From the IMG/VR virus record IMGVR_UViG_3300028399_000034, positions 1 through 21,191 of that record: DNA of 21,191 nucleotides; one strand, given 5' to 3'. The position numbers were made by a program, and so were the translations under genes. Below the pieces are notes generated by a model, which did not search any database, was not told where the DNA came from, and was given only the letters and a program-made list of their open reading frames with translations. The DNA is from a virus. Shown here piece after piece: positions 1 through 18,953 of this stretch (position 1 is the stretch's first letter; each line of letters opens with the position of its first letter).

Positions 1-517
1 CAATACCTGTCGCCGTGGTGGATGAAGCAGTCAATACCTGCCTATCATTTCCCACTGGAAGTCTTGCGTCTGCGGTGTCGTAAGTATAAAGGTCGCCTTT
101 GGTTGTTAATGGGCTTGAACCGCCACCGCCTGTTATACAAGTTCCATTTATAGCATAACAACCGGAAGAGATGTCCAATCCGCCAATGGAAGAAAATGAA
201 GATGTGGCGGTTGAGAAATTTATGCCGTTTGCATCTCCTACAGAAAGGATAGAATTTGGAGTAGTCGTGCCGACACCTACTCTTCCTGAATTTCTGTCAT
301 ACACCAAGCCACCAGAACCGATGTTGACCCCACCGGCGAAAGTTGAGGTGGCGGTTGTTGAGGTGGCTGTGAAATGATCGGCTTTAACGCCCCAACTCTC
401 GTCAACTAATACTGCTTCATTATTATCTGGATACCAAATACTCGCGGCACGAACAACGCCGCTGATTATTAACGTACAAAGTATGATTGAAATTGTAGTT
501 CGTATGAAAAGTTTCAT
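1..517 (-). CDS. Secreted or anchored tail-fibre-like protein (partial)
   Basis: The gene starts at the ATG complementary to 515-517 and runs off the left edge, so only about 172 N-terminal residues are seen. Residues 1-24 (MKLFIRTTISIILCTLIISG then VVRA) look like a signal peptide. The mature part is rich in Thr, Ser, Gly and Ala. It contains RVGVGTTTPNSILSV and, further on, SPLTTKGDLYTYDTADARLP, a segment common in phage fibre shafts. The GVGTTTP motif is shared with the protein at 3359-3877. A role as a fibre or receptor-binding protein is inferred. A Sec-type signal on such a protein is unusual. It is the last gene of the leftward module seen here and lies 14 bases after the previous gene. 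No Shine-Dalgarno sequence precedes the start. Confidence 0.72.
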   Translation of the reverse strand, partial: MKLFIRTTISIILCTLIISGVVRAASIWYPDNNEAVLVDESWGVKADHFTATSTTATSTFAGGVNIGSGGLVYDRNSGRVGVGTTTPNSILSVGDANGINFSTATSSFSSIGGLDISSGCYAINGTCITGGGGSSPLTTKGDLYTYDTADARLPVGNDRQVLTASSTTATGI

Positions 518-3358: not shown

Positions 3359-3877
3359 TTAAATCCCAGTTGGGCAAGTAACTGTTTTCGCGGCTACCGT
3401 GCCGTCAATCGTCGTCAACTCAGAGCACCCGGCTCCATCAGCGTCCTCAATTATAATTCTGCCTCCTTTGGCGGAAGCGCCGCTGCTGACGATGACGGTC
3501 GTAGTGGCTGACGAATTTTCAACTTGGAACAAATCCAAGGGAGTGGTTGTCCCCACGCCAATTCTGTCCAAATCTGTTTGCACTACCAAGTCGCTTGTTC
3601 CGACGGTGGTTGTAGCCGTAACGGTTAGCGTGCTTGAAAATGTCCCCGTCGTTGAAGTAATCGGAGCGTCAACGTTTCCAGACCCATCGATGACCGTGAC
3701 ACCGTCAACTTTATACCCATCAGCACTATCCCAACTGCCGGCGGTGTAAACACCCAACGTTCTACTCCCAGATTCTGCCGTATTAACGTTACCGCATTCA
3801 TTATTGATGACGCTCATACTGAATCCTATAACCAAAAACACTGCGAGTATTAAAGACAAAAGTTTATACTTGTTCAT
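3359..3877 (-). CDS. Signal-peptide fibre-like protein, 172 aa
   Basis: It begins MNKYKLLSLILAVFLVIGFS, a clear signal peptide or anchor. The mature part is low-complexity and Thr/Ser/Val/Gly-rich: TTGTFSSTLTVTATTTVGTS, then DRIGVGTTTPLDLFQVENSS, ending in a short domain with two cysteines (GAGCSELTT, KTVTCPTGI). The GVGTTTP motif and the short repeats resemble fibre-like proteins frequent in CPR-associated genomes and in phage fibres; this is from general knowledge, not a search. Unusually, it sits directly after the major capsid gene. It may be a head fibre, or a protein exported to the host surface. The start at 3877 is 14 bases from the stem-loop at 3892-3913. Confidence 0.65.
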   Translation of the reverse strand: MNKYKLLSLILAVFLVIGFSMSVINNECGNVNTAESGSRTLGVYTAGSWDSADGYKVDGVTVIDGSGNVDAPITSTTGTFSSTLTVTATTTVGTSDLVVQTDLDRIGVGTTTPLDLFQVENSSATTTVIVSSGASAKGGRIIIEDADGAGCSELTTIDGTVAAKTVTCPTGI

Positions 3878-8454: not shown

Positions 8455-10029
8455 TTAGCTCAAATCTTTTTTCTTATTGTGACTGAACCCGCCGTCTGAT
8501 TCATAAACGATGTATTTTCGCATTTGCCAACAAATTGCCAAAGCAGTAAGCAAATCCCAATGGCGAGTTTGTTCTTTGTCAAATTTTACTCTATCCACGT
8601 CGTTCTCATCATAAGTCCTAGCTTCCCTGTTAATCCGCTTATCCGCCACTTCCAACAACTCGTCGTTATAAGCAGTCTTCAAGTCCAACATCATCTGCGG
8701 CTTAGTGCTACCCGTAGTCTTCCACCCTAATTCCTTGGTCTCTTGTTCTTCCGTTTTACCTTCTATCTTACGTACGAAAATGTTGGCGTATATTTTAGAA
8801 AGCTCCACGCAAGTCGCGTATCCTCTGTCGTTGTTTTCCGGCGCCATTAAACAATTCCCATAACGCTCACCGCCGTTCTTTATCTCGTACGCGAACACCG
8901 TAGCGTCTATTTCATTGTTCTCGTACACTGCCACTACTCTCGGTCTATGCGGCGTAAAGTCCATTATTACGATAGTAGAACTATCCCTTCCTTTACCGTG
9001 ACTGACGTCTGCAGCCCCAGCGTAAACGTGCCCAGGTTGGTAATCGGCGAAATACGTCCAATGTCCAACTTTAGTACCTTCCTTCTCATATTGTTTTTGT
9101 TTGTCTACCGCTTCCCGCTCGAACAATTTAACCCCAGAATATGCGAACGCTTCCTCCGGCGTAGTAGGGTACTGATTAAACAATTTAGAGAACTTATGAT
9201 TCAAACTAATCCACTTCGTGTACCAATAAGTTATCTCTCTGTCTGACAATCCGTGTTTATTCTGATAATTTTTAAAACTACCTTTTAATCCGATATGATA
9301 TTTCGTATAGTCTTTCGAACTTAAAAATTCATTAATCTGTTCCGGAGTGATGCTATCTAACTCATCATCGTCCCAAGTCCAATTATAAAAATGCGCTTTA
9401 TATTGTGTGGGAAATTTCGGTTCACCACGCTCCCACGCTTCCCAAAACATATTATAAAATTCGTCTTCTTCTCCTTCAGCCGTGCTTTCAATGTCTACTC
9501 TCGCCGTCGGTGGAGCTGCCGGAATGGTCCCAGATATCACTTCGTCAGCCGTCTGCGGATACGATTTGCACAATTTTGCGAACTCCGAAATATGTATCCG
9601 AGAATATGTACCCGACCTCCCGGAGGTGGAAACGGATATGGAACTTTCTTCTCCGCCTGGAAAATCAAACTTCAGAGCGTTAGTACGATTAGTGTCTACC
9701 ACCCAACGCAGATGATGTTTCAATTCCGGGTTAAGATTCTTCCACGCGTAATGTATCTTCTTACTGAAAATCTTATACGCTTCTTCTTTCTTATGGGCTA
9801 TTAAAAGCGCGTCAGCTCCCGGAGTGAACAAAACGTCGTCCAGAGCATCAATGCATTCGTCCGTAGTAAACCCTAACTGTCGCGATTTCAGAATGATGTT
9901 CCTCAAAGATTTATGCTTATTAAAATGTACTTGCGCTCTATTTCTCCGAAATTTCACTTTCCTCTTCCTCTTGTCCATTATCCAATAAAGCTTCCGCATC
10001 CTCCATTCTTTGTTCTTGATTCTGCTCAT
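8455..10029 (-). CDS. terL: Terminase large subunit, 524 aa
   Basis: All parts of a packaging motor are visible. The Walker A-like motif is KSRQLGFTT (48-56), the Walker B strand ends IHISE (145-149, with E149 as catalytic carboxylate), and the coupling motif is STAEG (182-186). The C-terminal nuclease has D341 in AGAADVSHGKGRDSS, E398 in MAPENND and D492 in HWD. Walker A lacks the usual final Gly-Lys-Thr form, as in many large terminases. The start at 10029 overlaps the small-subunit gene by 92 bases; in-frame ATGs at 9999 (with GGAGG touching it) and 9978 are alternatives. It works with the small subunit and the portal to pump DNA into the head. Confidence 0.92.
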   Translation of the reverse strand: MSRIKNKEWRMRKLYWIMDKRKRKVKFRRNRAQVHFNKHKSLRNIILKSRQLGFTTDECIDALDDVLFTPGADALLIAHKKEEAYKIFSKKIHYAWKNLNPELKHHLRWVVDTNRTNALKFDFPGGEESSISVSTSGRSGTYSRIHISEFAKLCKSYPQTADEVISGTIPAAPPTARVDIESTAEGEEDEFYNMFWEAWERGEPKFPTQYKAHFYNWTWDDDELDSITPEQINEFLSSKDYTKYHIGLKGSFKNYQNKHGLSDREITYWYTKWISLNHKFSKLFNQYPTTPEEAFAYSGVKLFEREAVDKQKQYEKEGTKVGHWTYFADYQPGHVYAGAADVSHGKGRDSSTIVIMDFTPHRPRVVAVYENNEIDATVFAYEIKNGGERYGNCLMAPENNDRGYATCVELSKIYANIFVRKIEGKTEEQETKELGWKTTGSTKPQMMLDLKTAYNDELLEVADKRINREARTYDENDVDRVKFDKEQTRHWDLLTALAICWQMRKYIVYESDGGFSHNKKKDLS

Positions 10030-11021: not shown

Positions 11022-11050
11022 TTGACAAGCTTCTCCGAGTGTGCTATAAT
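11022..11050 (+). promoter_or_regulatory. Rightward perfect sigma70 promoter P1
   Basis: TTGACA (11022-11027), exactly 17 bases, TATAAT (11045-11050): a full 12/12 consensus. It drives the HTH gene at 11106, with a leader of about 50 bases that includes a minimal start-stop (ATGTAA at 11067-11072) and no Shine-Dalgarno sequence. GTGTGCTATAATGG is shared with P3. Confidence 0.88.
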
Positions 11051-11105
11051 GGGGATAGATAAATTTATGTAATCGTCTTTTACCCCTTGCTCCTCTAATA
11101 CTAAT

Positions 11106-11294
11106 ATGATGAAACGCAATTTGGAAATAAAACGGTTGTACGACCAAGGATTAGGATTCCAGGAAATAGGGAACCTTTTCGGCATATCCAGACAACGAGT
11201 GCATCAAATAATCGTCAGATTTAATAAACTGGACGAAAATCGTGAGCAACCTGTGGACGAACGAAATCACGACGACGTCGTGCGCGTAAAATAA
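11106..11294 (+). CDS. Small helix-turn-helix regulator, 62 aa
   Basis: Residues 6-40 (LEIKRLYDQGLGFQEIGNLF then GISRQRVHQIIVRFN) form a clear helix-turn-helix like sigma70 region 4: a 'GlsfqEIG...GiSrqrVhqi' pattern, with the recognition helix around SRQRVHQI. The C-terminal 20 residues are charged and have no recognised fold. A start at the second Met (11109) is equally possible. It is the only gene served directly by promoter P1 and is surrounded by promoters and repeats, so a role as the phage's early regulator or repressor is inferred. The end of the gene has a hairpin CACGAC-GAC-GTCGTG (11268-11282) and overlaps one CCTGTGGAYGA repeat. Confidence 0.72.
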   Translation: MMKRNLEIKRLYDQGLGFQEIGNLFGISRQRVHQIIVRFNKLDENREQPVDERNHDDVVRVK

Positions 11295-11394
11295 CCTGTG
11301 GATGAAAACTGAAGCTTCCAATATTCTAATATTAACAGAAGCCCGTAAGGACGGTATTCAGAAATACTTTTGATATCAGCGAACAAACAAATAC

Positions 11395-11423
11395 TTGACA
11401 GCGAGCGTCCGATATGATATAAT
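11395..11423 (+). promoter_or_regulatory. Rightward perfect sigma70 promoter P2
   Basis: TTGACA (11395-11400), 17 bases, TATAAT (11418-11423), again 12/12. There is no clear gene right after it. The transcript would start near 11430 and meet a hairpin with eight T's at 11460-11513, so it most likely makes a short RNA. ATACTTGACA is shared with P3. Confidence 0.85.
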
Positions 11424-11429
11424 GGAAGT

Positions 11430-11513
11430 ATAATGATGGAACATTACAACCAACGAAAGAAACTAAACTCTTGCGACGGTAACATCGACGGCCGCGACAG
11501 CTTAGTTTTTTTT
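11430..11513 (+). ncRNA. Candidate short phage RNA (about 80 nt)
   Basis: It is bounded by promoter P2 and by a terminator-like hairpin. The 5' part is A/C-rich, and the 3' part is the hairpin. A 37-codon frame (ATG at 11433 or 11436, MMEHYNQRKKLNSCDGNI and on) crosses the hairpin and looks non-protein-like (LVFFNLFFLAT where the T-runs are translated), so an RNA is preferred over a peptide. The function is unknown; an antisense or protein-binding RNA is possible. Confidence 0.45.
11460..11513 (+). terminator. Intrinsic terminator after promoter P2
   Basis: AAACTAAACTCTTGCG (11460-11475) pairs with CGCGACAGCTTAGTTT (11493-11508): 16 positions, 13 Watson-Crick, one G-U and two mismatches. The T-run 11506-11513 follows at once. 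A second run of eight T's is at 11518-11525. Such a stem with a U8 tail is a standard factor-independent terminator. Confidence 0.6.
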
Positions 11514-11733
11514 AACCTTTTTTTTCTGGCAACTCTCCGTACCTGATGTTTAACACGACTTTCACGTTGACACTGTAATTGTAGAGGTTTTAGTGGTTTT
11601 TACGGCAAATAAACCACCCCCGTGACGATTTGGTGGTAACAATTGGGCTGGTATCAGGGTGGAGTGGACAGTAAGAAAACAAAAGGGGGGATATTGGACT
11701 ACAAGCTGTAGGACATAAATTTTGAAGAGATAC
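11514..11733. other. Untranslated gap with small inverted repeats
   Basis: No gene can be supported here. Small repeats exist: GTGGTTT / AAACCAC around an 11-base loop at about 11592-11616, and ACCACC / GGTGGT around 11613-11637, which partly compete. These could be an RNA fold before promoter P3, or chance. An antisense open frame across the region shows no protein-like features. Confidence 0.35.
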
Positions 11734-11762
11734 TTGACAAATCGTTTCTGGTGTGCTATAAT
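11734..11762 (+). promoter_or_regulatory. Rightward perfect sigma70 promoter P3
   Basis: TTGACA (11734-11739), 17 bases, TATAAT (11757-11762), 12/12. It lies 14 bases before the ATG at 11777, so the transcript would have a leader of about 8 bases or almost none. It probably drives the rightward operon that ends in the Z-nucleotide genes; no other strong promoter was found in 11777-20500. Confidence 0.87.
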
Positions 11763-12966: not shown

Positions 12967-13983
12967 ATGAAAAACCATTTACAAAACGCTTGGCGGTTTG
13001 CGGACGTATGGAATGCTTCTTTAGAAGAACGGGCAGAGCGGGAAATGAAAATCCGCGATAATGTTTGGGCTTCTGAATTAGGTCGTGCTCCCATAGATGT
13101 ATGGCTGAAAATGAGAGCTACCCCATTCACTAATCCACCAAACGCCCGTTCCTTACGTAAGTTTGAGGCCGGCAACGTATTTGAATGGATCGTCTCTCTA
13201 ATACTGAAACGAGCCGGAATTTTACAAGAATCCCAGAAATGGTCTTCGTACCAATACGAGGGGTTGATTGAAGTAACGGGCAAAGCGGATTTTATCGCTG
13301 GCGGTAAACCCGATATAGAAAAGTGGAAATCAGAATCAAGAAGTCTGGGATTACCAGATGTTTTCTTACGAGTAGGAGATAGCATTCTAGAATATTTTGA
13401 GAAGAATTATCCGGACGGCTTAGCTATTATGCCTTTAGAAATTAAAAGCGTTTCCGCTTTTATGTTTGAAGCTCTAGAACGCAACCAACAATCAAGCAAA
13501 ATACACAGGATGCAACTTTTCCATTATCTAAAGAGTGATAATCATCCGTTCGGTTCTATCGTCTATATTTGCCGAGACGACCTTAGGATAATCGAATTCT
13601 TAGTAGAAAACCCATCTGACACTGAACAAGAGTATAAAAACACCATCGAGATTCTTTCCGCATACCATCAAGAAAATAAACAACCACCATTGGAACAACC
13701 AATTGTATTTGATGAAGATATTGGTAAATTCGCTAAAAATTTTAATGTGGCATATAGTCCTTATTTGAAAATGCTTTATGGATTTAATGATCAGAATGCT
13801 TTTGACAACGTTTATCAGCCGAAAGTCGCTCGTTGGAACCGCGTAATGTGTAGAATACGCGATGGGAAGAATATGACTAAATTAAATGAAGAAGTAAAAC
13901 AAGAAATAACTGATGCTGGTTTCAATATTGATGAATTGATCCCCAAATTCGTTCCCAATAAAGACGAAGAAGATAATTTATAA
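12967..13983 (+). CDS. Cas4/RecB-like PD-(D/E)XK exonuclease, 338 aa
   Basis: The nuclease motifs are in order: ASELGRAPIDVWLKMR (35-50, the Cas4-like N-terminal 'S....R..WL'), FEAGNVFEW (66-74), TGKADFI (104-110, with D108), LEIKS (157-161, with E158 and K160) and MQLFHYL (182-188, the QxxxY motif). This is the typical layout of phage RecB-family nucleases. The Cys ligands of an iron-sulphur Cas4 are not evident. The C-terminal third has no recognised domain. It probably acts with the OB-fold-like protein encoded next to it in DNA recombination or repair. There is no Shine-Dalgarno sequence; the start follows an A/T linker after the element at 12875-12950. Confidence 0.75.
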   Translation: MKNHLQNAWRFADVWNASLEERAEREMKIRDNVWASELGRAPIDVWLKMRATPFTNPPNARSLRKFEAGNVFEWIVSLILKRAGILQESQKWSSYQYEGLIEVTGKADFIAGGKPDIEKWKSESRSLGLPDVFLRVGDSILEYFEKNYPDGLAIMPLEIKSVSAFMFEALERNQQSSKIHRMQLFHYLKSDNHPFGSIVYICRDDLRIIEFLVENPSDTEQEYKNTIEILSAYHQENKQPPLEQPIVFDEDIGKFAKNFNVAYSPYLKMLYGFNDQNAFDNVYQPKVARWNRVMCRIRDGKNMTKLNEEVKQEITDAGFNIDELIPKFVPNKDEEDNL

Positions 13984-14002: not shown

Positions 14003-14398
14003 ATGCGTGTACAAAAAAAATCAACCACCCAACGCGATTGGGCAAAAGCGCGAGTAGATTATAATGATGGAGACATTATCATAATCAAAAACGCAGGTGA
14101 AGAAGTTGAAGGAGATTATGGTACTCGTTTAGTGTTTGCTGTGGACACTAAAAATGGAGAAAAACATTTGTCTTTCAACCAAACGACCATTAATAATCTA
14201 ATAGACGCTTACGGCGAAGAAACTTCTCAATGGGTAGGGAAAGAAGTAAAAGTTTGGATAATAAAATCGAACATTCAAGGCAAACTGAGAGACGTTACTT
14301 ATCTTACCGCTCCAGATTGGAGGATGTTAGATGAAGGATTTTTCCCACCACCACCTAATAACCAAGAGCCAACAATTACTCAAGAAGGATACAATTAA
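14003..14398 (+). CDS. OB-fold-like single-strand DNA-binding candidate, 131 aa
   Basis: The middle (GDIIIIKNAGEEVEGDYGTR, LVFAVDTKNGEKHLSFNQTT, then WVGKEVKVWIIKSN) follows the pattern 'GD...i..eg....yg...vf.v....g..k.l.lN.tsin.Li.ayG..t..WvGk.V.v' of small OB-fold proteins that phages encode beside a RecB-like nuclease. Acidic residues and PPPP occur near the C-terminus (EGFFPPPPNNQEPT). A role in single-strand DNA binding and annealing is inferred from this context, not proved. The ATG at 14003 follows an A/T spacer of 19 bases with no Shine-Dalgarno sequence. Confidence 0.6.
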   Translation: MRVQKKSTTQRDWAKARVDYNDGDIIIIKNAGEEVEGDYGTRLVFAVDTKNGEKHLSFNQTTINNLIDAYGEETSQWVGKEVKVWIIKSNIQGKLRDVTYLTAPDWRMLDEGFFPPPPNNQEPTITQEGYN

Positions 14399-14405
14399 TA
14401 AACAT

Positions 14406-14900
14406 ATGTTAAGGGAGGATTTATACAATCTATCAAGGAAATATTTTAAAGGTTTACATTTTAAGGTTTATATGGATGGGACTGTAAAGACGAAACAAGG
14501 GAAAGAGATAGGATATATATCAAAGGAGTATATGGAGAAAATTGAAAGTGAAATTTTGAAAGGGTTTGCGTTAGATAAATTAGTCAAGAAATATGTTGTA
14601 ATCCCAATCAACATCAGGAGCAACGTTAGTATATACTTCAAAGACATTAAAAAAAAGATAAAACCACTACGAAAAGTGAAAAAGAAACCGTGGATTACGA
14701 TGTACCGTCTCAATAAATATAAAAACTTGCTTACTGAATTGGAGTATGAGATTATGAAAAAATCAATCAAGGGACAAAACGCGAAAACTATTGGGCATCA
14801 ACTCGGGATAAAAGACACGACTGTTAACACTTATAAACATTCAGCCAAAAAGAAAATATATGGTGAAAAATCTAAAAGAAAAAGTAAAACATTGTCTTGA
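14406..14900 (+). CDS. LuxR-type HTH / sigma-like regulator, 164 aa
   Basis: The start at 14406 (MLREDLYNLSRKYFKGLHFK) is chosen because a start at 14331 would lie inside the previous gene. The last ~60 residues (LTELEYEIMKKSIKGQNAKT then IGHQLGIKDTTVNTYKHSAK) are a LuxR- or region-4-type helix-turn-helix: 'Lt..E.eim.....G...k.Ig..LgIk..TVn.y...'. The N-terminal ~100 residues are Lys-rich with no recognised domain. A phage transcription regulator, perhaps switching on a later set of genes, is plausible. It overlaps the next gene by 41 bases. Confidence 0.6.
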   Translation: MLREDLYNLSRKYFKGLHFKVYMDGTVKTKQGKEIGYISKEYMEKIESEILKGFALDKLVKKYVVIPINIRSNVSIYFKDIKKKIKPLRKVKKKPWITMYRLNKYKNLLTELEYEIMKKSIKGQNAKTIGHQLGIKDTTVNTYKHSAKKKIYGEKSKRKSKTLS

Positions 14901-15472: not shown

Positions 15473-16195
15473 ATGATACAAGCAACAAAAACAAACGCTC
15501 GGAAAATGTTTTCCGATATACAAAATTTATTCGAAAAAAAATTAGAAGATTATGGAACATCGGATATTAAAAATTTAGAACAGGTACTGACGCGTATGAA
15601 CGAAAAGATAGAACGTATTCGTAATCTGCAACACAAAGAAGCAAACAACGAATCTGTTTTGGACAATTTTTTTGACATAGCCGGGTATGCTGTTATAGGT
15701 GGTCTTTTCTACTCTAAACAGTGGGGGGAGGGTGCGACGACGGGCACTACTAATGTTTGGTTTAATAATGATAAAGTTTTAGTGAAACATAACTCGGAAC
15801 ACGGTGGTATTAACACACCTGCCAAACAAGGTGATTGTGGGTATGATTTAATAGTAGCTGAAGATATGGTCATAGAACCGCACGGTGAGTTACCGGTAGA
15901 TGTACCTTGTAATGTCAGTATAAAGATACCAGAAGGATACTGGGCTATGATAATAAACCGTTCTTCTACCACGCGAAAATTAGGATTGCGAGTAGTGTCT
16001 GGCGTGATCGATAATGGTTATACTGGTCCCTTGTACGCTTGCGTGTACAATATGACTAATCAGCCAGTCGAAGTCAAAAAAGGAATGCGGCTTGCTCAAT
16101 TAATCTTTTTCCCCTTGATTACGCCTGCCTGTCAGAAAGTGGATGAACTACCTAAAACTGAAAGAGGTGAAGATGGATTTGGCTCCACTGGGTAA
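15473..16195 (+). CDS. Fused MazG-like (DUF1599-type) and dUTPase protein, 240 aa
   Basis: Residues 1-88 match the all-alpha NTP pyrophosphatase type (MazG/DUF1599): KKLEDYGTSD, RMNEKIERIRNL (E44 and E47), then ESVLDNFFDIAGYA (E60, D64, D68), the acidic residues that hold magnesium. Residues 108-240 are a complete trimeric dUTPase with five motifs: GDCGYDL (120-126), NRSST (162-166), GVIDNGYTG (177-185, with D180 and Y183), GMRLAQLIF (204-212) and RGEDGFGSTG (231-240). The dUTPase would hydrolyse dUTP to dUMP. The MazG-like part could cleave dGTP to dGMP, as MazZ does in phages with 2-aminoadenine DNA. The gene lies just upstream of the lyase and PurZ genes, which supports that role. Confidence 0.8.
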   Translation: MIQATKTNARKMFSDIQNLFEKKLEDYGTSDIKNLEQVLTRMNEKIERIRNLQHKEANNESVLDNFFDIAGYAVIGGLFYSKQWGEGATTGTTNVWFNNDKVLVKHNSEHGGINTPAKQGDCGYDLIVAEDMVIEPHGELPVDVPCNVSIKIPEGYWAMIINRSSTTRKLGLRVVSGVIDNGYTGPLYACVYNMTNQPVEVKKGMRLAQLIFFPLITPACQKVDELPKTERGEDGFGSTG

Positions 16196-16234
16196 ATCCA
16201 ATGTGAAGATTATAGAATATGCGTTTAAATAATT

Positions 16235-17278
16235 ATGAACACAAACAGACTACAACACATTTGGAGCGAGAAATTCTGGAATGAGTGTGCAGAATGGATA
16301 GAAAATAAATATTTTAATCTGTTGCCGCAAAATTTGAAAAATATCCCCAACAAAAGCCCACTCGAGCCAACTAATCATAGGATAGAAAAATTTGTACGTG
16401 AGCTTTGTCATAAAACTGGGCGTGGAGCTTATCATATAGGATTAACTAGTTCTGATTTGGAAGACAATATTCGCACGATACGCATCGTCGAGAGTTATAA
16501 TCATATTAGTAAAAAATTAGAATCGTTGACAGAAAGCTTGGCAAAAATGTTAACCAACAAGGTGATAAGAGCTTACACGCATTTGTTACCAGCAGGGCAA
16601 ACAACATTAACTAATAGATTCGCTCATCTATTAGAATACCAAAAAAACATACCAGACCCTGTCATTCATTTTAAAGGTATCGGCGGTTCCGTTGGTAGGA
16701 AACACGTTCAAAAGCACCTAAAGATAGATGTTGTGGGATTTTTCCCGCCAGAGTACGCAAAAACGCAAACATATTGTTCACAAACAGGTAATCATCTGAG
16801 TGAAATCGAAATTACTCGGTGGATTTCTGAACAAACCGTATTCCTTACTAAGTTGGCCAATGATTTGAGAATGATGGTAGTCTTTAATCAAATAAAGATT
16901 ACCGAAAAAGATGTAGCTTCTACTGCATTAGTTCAAAAACCGAGACCGAATCCTTGGAGATTAGAACGAGTTGTTGGGATGTCCAACGAAATCTTTAACA
17001 AATTTCCTACCGTCTGTCGAGCAGCCGCCGATTGTATGTTAGAAAGGACTTTAACCAACCAGTCAGTACTTAATTACGCTTTGAAAGAATTGTTTTTATT
17101 AATAGAGAGTATGATACGAGATATTAATGAATTTCTGCAAAATTGTGAATTTATCGTGGAAGAAGAAGAAAATGATCCAGAAATTGAATTGGCAGATTTG
17201 ATGACGGAGAAAAGAATAGACCGCCGTGCCGCTTATAAAATAATAAATAATAAACACAAAAATCTATGGAAGATTTAA
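16235..17278 (+). CDS. Adenylosuccinate lyase homologue (PurB-like), 347 aa
   Basis: Clear signatures of the fumarase/aspartase superfamily appear: YHIGLTSSDLEDN (66-78, the substrate-binding loop with H67), YTHLLPAGQTTLTNRFAHLL (114-133, with the catalytic-His position H116), GIGGSVG (148-154), and ASTALVQKPRPNP (228-240, the flexible loop usually GSSxMPxKxNP). E243 follows. At 347 residues it is shorter than the usual 430-460. The second Ser of the SS pair, normally catalytic, appears as T230, and one residue is added before NP. The lyase would remove fumarate from succinylated dZMP precursor (and possibly adenylosuccinate). It overlaps the PurZ gene by 13 bases. Confidence 0.85.
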   Translation: MNTNRLQHIWSEKFWNECAEWIENKYFNLLPQNLKNIPNKSPLEPTNHRIEKFVRELCHKTGRGAYHIGLTSSDLEDNIRTIRIVESYNHISKKLESLTESLAKMLTNKVIRAYTHLLPAGQTTLTNRFAHLLEYQKNIPDPVIHFKGIGGSVGRKHVQKHLKIDVVGFFPPEYAKTQTYCSQTGNHLSEIEITRWISEQTVFLTKLANDLRMMVVFNQIKITEKDVASTALVQKPRPNPWRLERVVGMSNEIFNKFPTVCRAAADCMLERTLTNQSVLNYALKELFLLIESMIRDINEFLQNCEFIVEEEENDPEIELADLMTEKRIDRRAAYKIINNKHKNLWKI

Positions 17279-18567
17279 AACAACGAAAACCAATCATCGT
17301 GGTAATCGGAGCACAATATGGTTCCGAGAGCAAAGGACTCGTAGTCGGACATTTATCCATTGAGAAAGATGCCGATTACGCAGTCCGTACAGGCAGTATA
17401 AACGCCGGGCATACTGTCTATTATAAAGGTAAAAAATACGTTAATCAAGTATTACCTACGGCGTGGGTTAATCCTAAAACGAAGTTAATCATCGGCGCAG
17501 GTGCTTATGTTAATTTGGACATCTTGGAACGTGAAGTTGAAATGATAAACGAGATTATGGAAGGAGACGTCAGGGATAGGATTTTTATAGACCCACGTTG
17601 CGGAGTACAATCTACCGCCCACCAGAAAATGGAAGAAAAAATGCAACTACACCAAAATATGGGGTCTACTGCTAAAGGTTCAATGGCATCGATTATAGAT
17701 AAAATGCAACGCTCTCAGGATTATAAATTGCTCGGTCAGCGGTTTTTGAAACATTACCAAATAACAAACACAGTAGAACTCTTAAATGATGCCTATCAAA
17801 ACAAAAAACAGATAATCATAGAAGGTACGCAAGGAGCTCTGCTTGATTTTCATTTCGGACATTACCCATATGTTACGGCAAGACAAACTGGAGCGTCCGC
17901 GTGGATTACGGAATGCGGATTACCTTTAAATTTTAATTATACTATTGTATCAGTGGCCAGGACTTTCCCCATACGAGTGGCCGGCAATTCTGGGCCGATG
18001 GGGGAAGAAATAAAATGGGTGGATCTGTTGCGAAGTGTGAACAAAAAAAGAGCAAAATATAATATGGAACCGATAATCAGAGAAGAAATCCTTGCTCAAT
18101 TCGCAGGTGCTGAGCGTAAAGTACTGAACGACCACCGTATCCAAAGACACCCAGTCGATATGTCTTGCAGGTCTAGCGAAATGCACTCTGGATTTTTGTC
18201 TAAATTTTATCAATTAGTGTTTGACGAATTATCTGATGATGCAAAGCACGAAATGTCTAAGATTCTAGAAATGACTACAGTAACGCGTAAAGTTAGGAGG
18301 ATAGCTAAATTTAATATTAACGAATTACGGTGGTCTAATACACTAAACAACCCCAATTATTTTGTTATTAATTTTTTGAATTATTTATTCCCTACTTGTT
18401 GGGGAGCGCGTACTATGGAAGAATTGGAAGATAGCCCTGAGTGGCCAGAGATTAAAAAATATTTGGAAAACTTCGCGCAAATTTTTAAACATCCAGTATT
18501 ATATGTTAATTGTGCCCCAGATTGTATCATTAAACTAAAATATACTTACGGTGCAGAATACCTATGA
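17266..18567 (+). CDS. purZ: PurZ-type succino-2-aminodeoxyadenylate synthetase, 433 aa
   Basis: A full-length member of the adenylosuccinate synthetase family. The first motif is GAQYGSESKG (15-24); Ser20 replaces the catalytic Asp13 of E. coli PurA, the change that marks PurZ and lets it use dGMP. His49 (INAGHT) is the catalytic histidine. Further motifs are GSTAKGSMA (133-141), EGTQGALLDF (186-195), FPIRVAGNSGP (234-244) and TTVTRKVRR (337-345). Several of these agree with phage PurZ as recalled from memory. The Gly after the Glu of the P-loop is Ser22. About 75 residues at 257-333 seem inserted relative to shorter phage PurZ proteins. The enzyme joins aspartate to dGMP, using ATP (or dATP) as energy source, the committed step to 2-aminoadenine DNA. 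Confidence 0.93.
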   Translation: MEDLKQRKPIIVVIGAQYGSESKGLVVGHLSIEKDADYAVRTGSINAGHTVYYKGKKYVNQVLPTAWVNPKTKLIIGAGAYVNLDILEREVEMINEIMEGDVRDRIFIDPRCGVQSTAHQKMEEKMQLHQNMGSTAKGSMASIIDKMQRSQDYKLLGQRFLKHYQITNTVELLNDAYQNKKQIIIEGTQGALLDFHFGHYPYVTARQTGASAWITECGLPLNFNYTIVSVARTFPIRVAGNSGPMGEEIKWVDLLRSVNKKRAKYNMEPIIREEILAQFAGAERKVLNDHRIQRHPVDMSCRSSEMHSGFLSKFYQLVFDELSDDAKHEMSKILEMTTVTRKVRRIAKFNINELRWSNTLNNPNYFVINFLNYLFPTCWGARTMEELEDSPEWPEIKKYLENFAQIFKHPVLYVNCAPDCIIKLKYTYGAEYL

Positions 18568-18953
18568 ATTTAACCAAAAAAGGAGTATGGAAAAATTTTA
18601 GCTTATACGTCAGGTTAAGAGATTCAGACCAGCGTGGATATTGTTCCTGTATTTCTTGCGGTACTATTAAACATTACAAAGAATGCCAGGCGGGGCATTT
18701 TATCCATAATAAAAACATAATATTTTTTGATGAAGACAACGTTCACGCTCAATGCGTGCGATGCAACCAATATTTGCACGGAAATTTATATTATTACGGC
18801 AAAACTTTAGAACAGAAGATAGGTAAATCAGCTATAAACCGATTGCTAACGCTAAAAAACAAACACCATAGATTCAATCAAACGGAGCTTAAATTAATAA
18901 ACGAATATTGCAAGGAAGAAATACGAAAATACAAAAAAGAAAAACTAATATGA
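18564..18953 (+). CDS. NinG-like recombination protein, 129 aa
   Basis: Residues 10-75 follow the lambda NinG pattern: FSLYVRLRDSDQRGYCSCIS then CG, CQAGHFIHNKNIIFFDEDNV and HAQCVRCNQYLHGNLYYYG. Zinc-ligand candidates are C27, C29, C32, C41, H45, C64, C67 and H72. The invariant 'RLRD', 'AGH', 'eDNvh.QC..CN' and 'GN...Y' elements are all present. NinG is linked to phage recombination. The C-terminal 50 residues are basic. It overlaps purZ by 4 bases (ATGA), so it is translated with it. Confidence 0.82.
   Translation: MNLTKKGVWKNFSLYVRLRDSDQRGYCSCISCGTIKHYKECQAGHFIHNKNIIFFDEDNVHAQCVRCNQYLHGNLYYYGKTLEQKIGKSAINRLLTLKNKHHRFNQTELKLINEYCKEEIRKYKKEKLI

Follow-up and report, generated by a model that had tools for sequence, protein, structure and literature searches.

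A third-lineage phage PurZ overlapped by a divergent PurB homologue: candidate core of a 2-aminoadenine DNA pathway

The PurZ enzymes described so far fall into two subgroups. Vibriophage phiVC8 and cyanophage S-2L encode ATP-using PurZ proteins that combine a Ser at the position of PurA Asp13 with a dGMP pocket, a TTVT loop, and an N-F-N/Q donor pocket. The GTP-using PurZ0 of Gordonia phage Archimedes and Arthrobacter phage Wayne has the same Ser, retains the GTP-type Asp, and is accompanied by a dUTPase-type gene nearby. The PurB step that follows is credited to the host enzyme in one open-access paper (PMC8342488) and to bacterial PurB in another (PMC12783734), and the paper describing DutZ enzymes, which hydrolyse dATP and dGTP, does not mention PurB (PMC12884076). 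Depositors have nonetheless annotated PurB in Streptomyces phages Hiyaa, Keanu, and Galactica and in Gordonia phages Ghobes and Archimedes, so the presence of PurB in a Z-phage genome is already known. The three Streptomyces phages carry a canonical PurB; in Keanu, whose PurZ lies in the PurZ0 clade, the purZ and PurB genes are about 4.5 kb apart, and in Archimedes the PurB gene is likewise not adjacent to purZ, and its product shows a normal GSSSMPHK loop. The locus described here differs in that a divergent purB directly overlaps a purZ from a separate third clade.

We analyzed the 21,191-nt IMG/VR virus record IMGVR_UViG_3300028399_000034, a fragment of a virus genome that we refer to as the window (Table 1). 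The gene for the terminase large subunit identifies the contig as a tailed phage. The original prediction described the neighbors of purZ as structural, packaging, and NinG-like genes, which holds for the terminase large subunit, a small-subunit-like protein, and NinG, each backed by profiles; the portal and capsid genes are putative, assigned from size, position, and conservation only. Absent from that prediction were the purB gene upstream of purZ, with which it overlaps by 13 nt, and the DUF1599-dUTPase gene preceding purB. The end of purZ, in turn, overlaps the start of ninG by 4 nt. ORF and profile searches found no DNA polymerase, DatZ, or MazZ within the 21-kb fragment, which thus differs from phiVC8 and S-2L in having PurB, and not MazZ/DatZ, beside purZ. 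The early-gene block also encodes a protein with a LuxR/GerE-type helix-turn-helix C-terminus (14331–14900), a possible regulator. Searches for tRNAs and Rfam families over the window were empty, a TerL scan returned weak relatives only, and two close structural relatives detected with the capsid, L129 and L130, lack purZ in their fragments.

Table 1. Principal features of the window.
Feature	Position	Strand	Description
Terminase large subunit	8455–10029	-	Profile-supported
Sigma-70 consensus promoter-like sites, extended -10	11022–11050, 11395–11423, 11734–11762 (span 11022–11762)	+	Consensus match only
Cas4/PD-(D/E)XK-like exonuclease	12967–13983	+	Same early-gene block; PHROG 1990, 3e-8
DUF1599-dUTPase/DutZ-like fusion	15473–16195	+	DUF1599, residues 23–76; dUTPase/DutZ-like domain, residues 112–240
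purB	16235–17278	+	Divergent, short (347 aa) adenylosuccinate-lyase homologue
purZ	17266–18567	+	433 aa, ATG start, uninterrupted by stops
NinG/Rap-like nuclease gene	18564–18953	+	Marks unit as phage-borne

The PurZ protein carries the substitution that was first noticed in it, a Ser (Ser20, with Lys23, in GSESKG) in place of PurA Asp13, and the motifs GSTAKGSMA, FPIRVAGNSGP, and TTVTRKVRR are all found in its sequence, together with a NAGHT motif containing His49. We compared it with the pocket residues of S-2L PurZ (PMC8342488). Ser20 aligns with Ser23 of the S-2L enzyme, and nearly all other pocket residues are kept in the alignment, namely K23, N46-A47-G48-H49, G133-S134-T135, R149, Q189, R237-V238, T337–T340 (TTVT), and R344. 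Seven of these, N46, A47, G133, S134, T135, Q189, and V238 (the Val next to C2'), are identical to S-2L PurZ. The donor pocket consists of N369, F370, and N372, the N-F-N of phiVC8 PurZ, whereas PurZ0 and PurA have T/S-M/K-D; Asn372 sits where these enzymes place their Asp. From this pocket, the window PurZ is predicted to use ATP as donor.

Profile searches identify the family of the protein without separating PurZ from PurA. It matches Pfam PF00709 (Adenylsucc_synt, 7e-43), PHROG 1211 (9e-63), and the NCBIfam PurZ model NF038379 (3e-63, 214 bits, under the 300-bit cut-off). The archaeal-type PurA model NF003295 scores slightly above the latter (222.8 bits, under its cut-off of 368), and the near equality of the two scores means that profiles alone cannot tell PurZ from PurA here. 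In a PDB sequence search, phiVC8 PurZ entries lead, and Pyrococcus PurA and PurZ0 also appear.

We built a maximum-likelihood tree of 71 proteins from columns filled in at least 30% of rows. PurA and PurZ are split in it with support of 100/99, and the window protein is placed on the PurZ side. It forms a clade of ten (100/99) with nine IMG/VR relatives (L003, L004, and L007–L013) that are 34–42% identical to it, apart from both the PurZ0 and the phiVC8/S-2L groups. The window PurZ thus appears to belong to a new third lineage outside both known subgroups. The data neither favor joining this clade to the phiVC8/S-2L group (94/56) nor reject it (p-AU 0.18 for a forced single clade). The clade is marked by an ATP-type donor pocket and by an insert of about 69–85 residues between GNSGP and TTVT, compared with 10–17 residues in the other Ser-type proteins of the alignment. 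In the window PurZ, the insert spans about residues 249–330 (about 80 aa), and the predicted model (pLDDT 86) folds it into three helices (res. 251–264, 273–289, and 301–320). Because sparse columns were dropped, most of the insert had no influence on the tree. The identity claimed for the protein is well supported by residues, tree, and gene context, with the amendment that it is not an ordinary phage PurZ. Cellular PurA was rejected on the residues and the tree, and PurZ0 on the donor pocket and the tree.

Two further PurA/PurZ homologues deserve mention beside this clade. Flavobacterium phage MaF61 has an annotated adenylosuccinate synthetase (L093, 3959–5302) with GSSGKG, an N-F-N donor pocket, and a very long branch, which may represent another deep PurZ-like lineage. 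A divergent Ser-type homologue in L016 and L017 also has GSSGKG, on a branch of 1.93, and its H-G-D donor pocket is unlike those of PurZ and PurZ0.

The protein encoded upstream of purZ is probably a divergent adenylosuccinate lyase (PurB). It matches TIGR00928 at 2e-19 (69.6 bits), far under the 326-bit cut-off, and its PDB sequence matches are adenylosuccinate lyases. These enzymes also head the Foldseek results, with TM values of about 0.5–0.6 for a low-confidence model (pLDDT 69). In alignments, it keeps the catalytic residues of the superfamily, H48, H116, S229 (aligned with E. coli Ser295), K235 (Lys301), N239, and E244, as well as H67 and T115. At about 20% identity, the window PurB sits on a long branch and departs from cellular PurB in its short C-terminus, in HR for HD and AYTH for GRTH, and in the signature loop, ASTALVQK-PRPNP, where MPH is replaced by LVQ and two residues are inserted after K235. 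We found no usable published description of ribose-site geometry in PurB, so the change from HD to HR is not read as a 2'-deoxy preference. A single-sequence IMG/VR scan with the window PurB returned zero relatives.

The closest counterpart of the arrangement is IMG/VR contig 3300009103_000084 (L011), in which a long-insert PurZ is likewise overlapped by a short divergent PurB. The two PurB proteins are 27% identical and group with support of 98/96, a join between two long branches; both carry the HR and AYTH changes, and the loop of L011 is intact (GSSSIPHK). Here, DUF1599 lies upstream and the dUTPase downstream as separate genes, whereas in the window the two are fused. More broadly, a PurB profile run on 50 records was positive in 16, comprising 15 of the 39 with a Ser-type or in-clade PurZ and 1 of the 11 with an Asp-type PurA. 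L012, whose PurZ is cut at its start, was counted with the third clade among the 39, and the PurB ORF of L043 was taken as 15477–16850. With near copies and fragments counted in, this enrichment is not significant alone (one-sided Fisher p 0.064). The purB label requires a minimum of 13 changes on the PurZ tree, a count that we do not use as evidence, since a fragment is an uncertain guide to absence. The purB gene lies next to purZ, or almost so, in five records (the window, L011, L014, L038, and L044). L038 (8646–9896) and L044 (8655–9866) display a second type of adjacency, with the two genes divergently transcribed and ~39 nt apart. A canonical phage PurB has matches in 38 of 50,697 phage records, the five annotated phages named above among them. 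Separately, the contig of a human faecal phage clone (L127, MT835488.1) encodes a PurB of the ADSL type, which is eukaryote-like.

The gene preceding purB encodes a fusion of DUF1599 and a dUTPase domain, as indicated by Pfam, NCBIfam, and PHROG profile matches. Its dUTPase motif, RSST-RK-GL-V-GVID-GYTGPL, is shared with several DutZ-type proteins of PurZ0 phages and is unlike the E. coli form, in a comparison that held few canonical dUTPases. DUF1599 recurs in the clade: in L003 and L013 it immediately precedes purZ, in L011 two genes separate it from the downstream purZ, and in L007 a dATP/dGTP diphosphohydrolase domain takes its position. By analogy with the DutZ enzymes, the fusion would be a dATP/dGTP pyrophosphohydrolase that yields dGMP and removes dATP, an activity that is putative for the DUF1599 part. 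Other genes of DNA metabolism accompany the clade: a family A DNA polymerase lies near purZ in all seven members checked, and YfbR-like HD proteins of the DatZ type are encoded by L007, L008, and L012. In combination, the polymerase, DatZ-like, and dATP/dGTP hydrolase genes point by association to Z genomes in this clade. In L007 (11274–13976) and L008 (12371–14959), the polymerase is fused to a uracil-DNA-glycosylase superfamily domain.

The order and overlap of the genes, their conserved catalytic residues, the existence of a third clade of PurZ, and the recurrence of PurB with PurZ are observed directly, and from them we propose that the three genes at 15473–18567 probably form the core of a phage pathway to Z-DNA. 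The fusion protein would hydrolyse dATP and dGTP, removing the former and supplying dGMP; PurZ, judging from its residues, fold, and tree position, would condense dGMP with aspartate, using ATP or dATP, to N6-succino-2-amino-dAMP; and the overlapping PurB would release fumarate from this succino-dZMP to give dZMP. Host kinases would then convert dZMP to dZTP, for incorporation by a polymerase encoded outside the fragment. On the same evidence, a 2-aminoadenine genome is likely for the window phage. A more specific version, to which we hold only tentatively, is that the window represents a third Z-phage lineage whose two-enzyme operon leads from dGMP to dZMP, with a PurB specialized for succino-2-amino-deoxyadenylate.

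Part of this proposal could be right while PurB plays no role in it. The lyase homologue may be degenerate or act on another substrate, with host PurB completing the pathway as in known Z-phages. The low identity, altered loop, short C-terminus, and low-confidence model of the window protein fit such a situation, as does the fact that most named PurZ phages have no recognized PurB of their own. We consider it unlikely, given that the catalytic Ser, Lys, Asn, Glu, and His are kept in an intact frame overlapping purZ, and that L011 repeats the arrangement with an unaltered loop. Still less probable is a pair that has nothing to do with Z-DNA, namely an ordinary adenine module that provides AMP or dAMP in a host poor in purine synthesis. 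PurA-like and PurB enzymes catalyze consecutive steps on the way to AMP, the window PurZ scores as high with the archaeal PurA profile as with the PurZ profile, and Foldseek ranks Pyrococcus PurA first among the nearest folds to its model, which also include PurZ0 and phiVC8 PurZ. Against such a module stand the Asp13-to-Ser20 exchange, the ATP-type donor pocket, and the position inside PurZ in the tree, along with the DatZ-like and dATP/dGTP hydrolase genes of clade members. We give similarly little credence to a phage that synthesizes dZTP yet replaces only part of its adenine, for instance because it relies on a host polymerase, and so carries mixed A/Z DNA. The fragment has neither polymerase nor DatZ, which would fit such a phage, but the record is incomplete and the seven clade members with a family A polymerase near purZ argue otherwise. 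The three-gene Z-DNA pathway remains our preferred reading.

Expression of the unit may begin between two oppositely oriented gene blocks, where a cluster of promoter-like sites is found. Three on the plus strand are perfect matches to TTGACA-17-TATAAT with an extended TG -10 (Table 1), and one 11/12 site on the minus strand (10949–10921) faces left; the shuffle control for these sites concerned the total site count, not 12/12 matches. The plus-strand sites are possible starts of early transcription towards purB-purZ. A Shine-Dalgarno-like sequence precedes 4 of the 30 genes checked (532–20992), and most window genes start after an A/T-rich leader, e.g., TAAAATATG or AAATTTATG. No host-labelled match was found for the window, and scanning genomes for matches to the PurZ alignment gave just two Thermotogota loci, both with Asp-type PurA, and no provirus or host. 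Low-complexity structural or fiber-like proteins with VGVGTTTP/TATST (VGIGTTTP-type) repeats are encoded in the window (2–517 and 3359–3877), in L129 (7794–9509), and in L130 (13616–15280). Repeats of this type occur in Patescibacteria surface proteins and are a possible hint to the CPR (Patescibacteria) host that the original prediction considered.

With its own PurB beside purZ, the phage may replace adenine with less help from the host than known Z-phages. The overlapping genes, together with the occurrence of PurB in 15 of 39 metagenomic PurZ records, suggest that many Z-phages supply the PurB step on their own. As a new enzyme group with a large insert, the third clade invites study of donor and substrate choice, and it also offers a compact candidate gene set for Z-DNA in laboratory cells. 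If an operon with a specialized PurB is indeed present, it would free Z-DNA synthesis from host purine enzymes and allow Z-DNA in hosts such as Patescibacteria, which often lack them.
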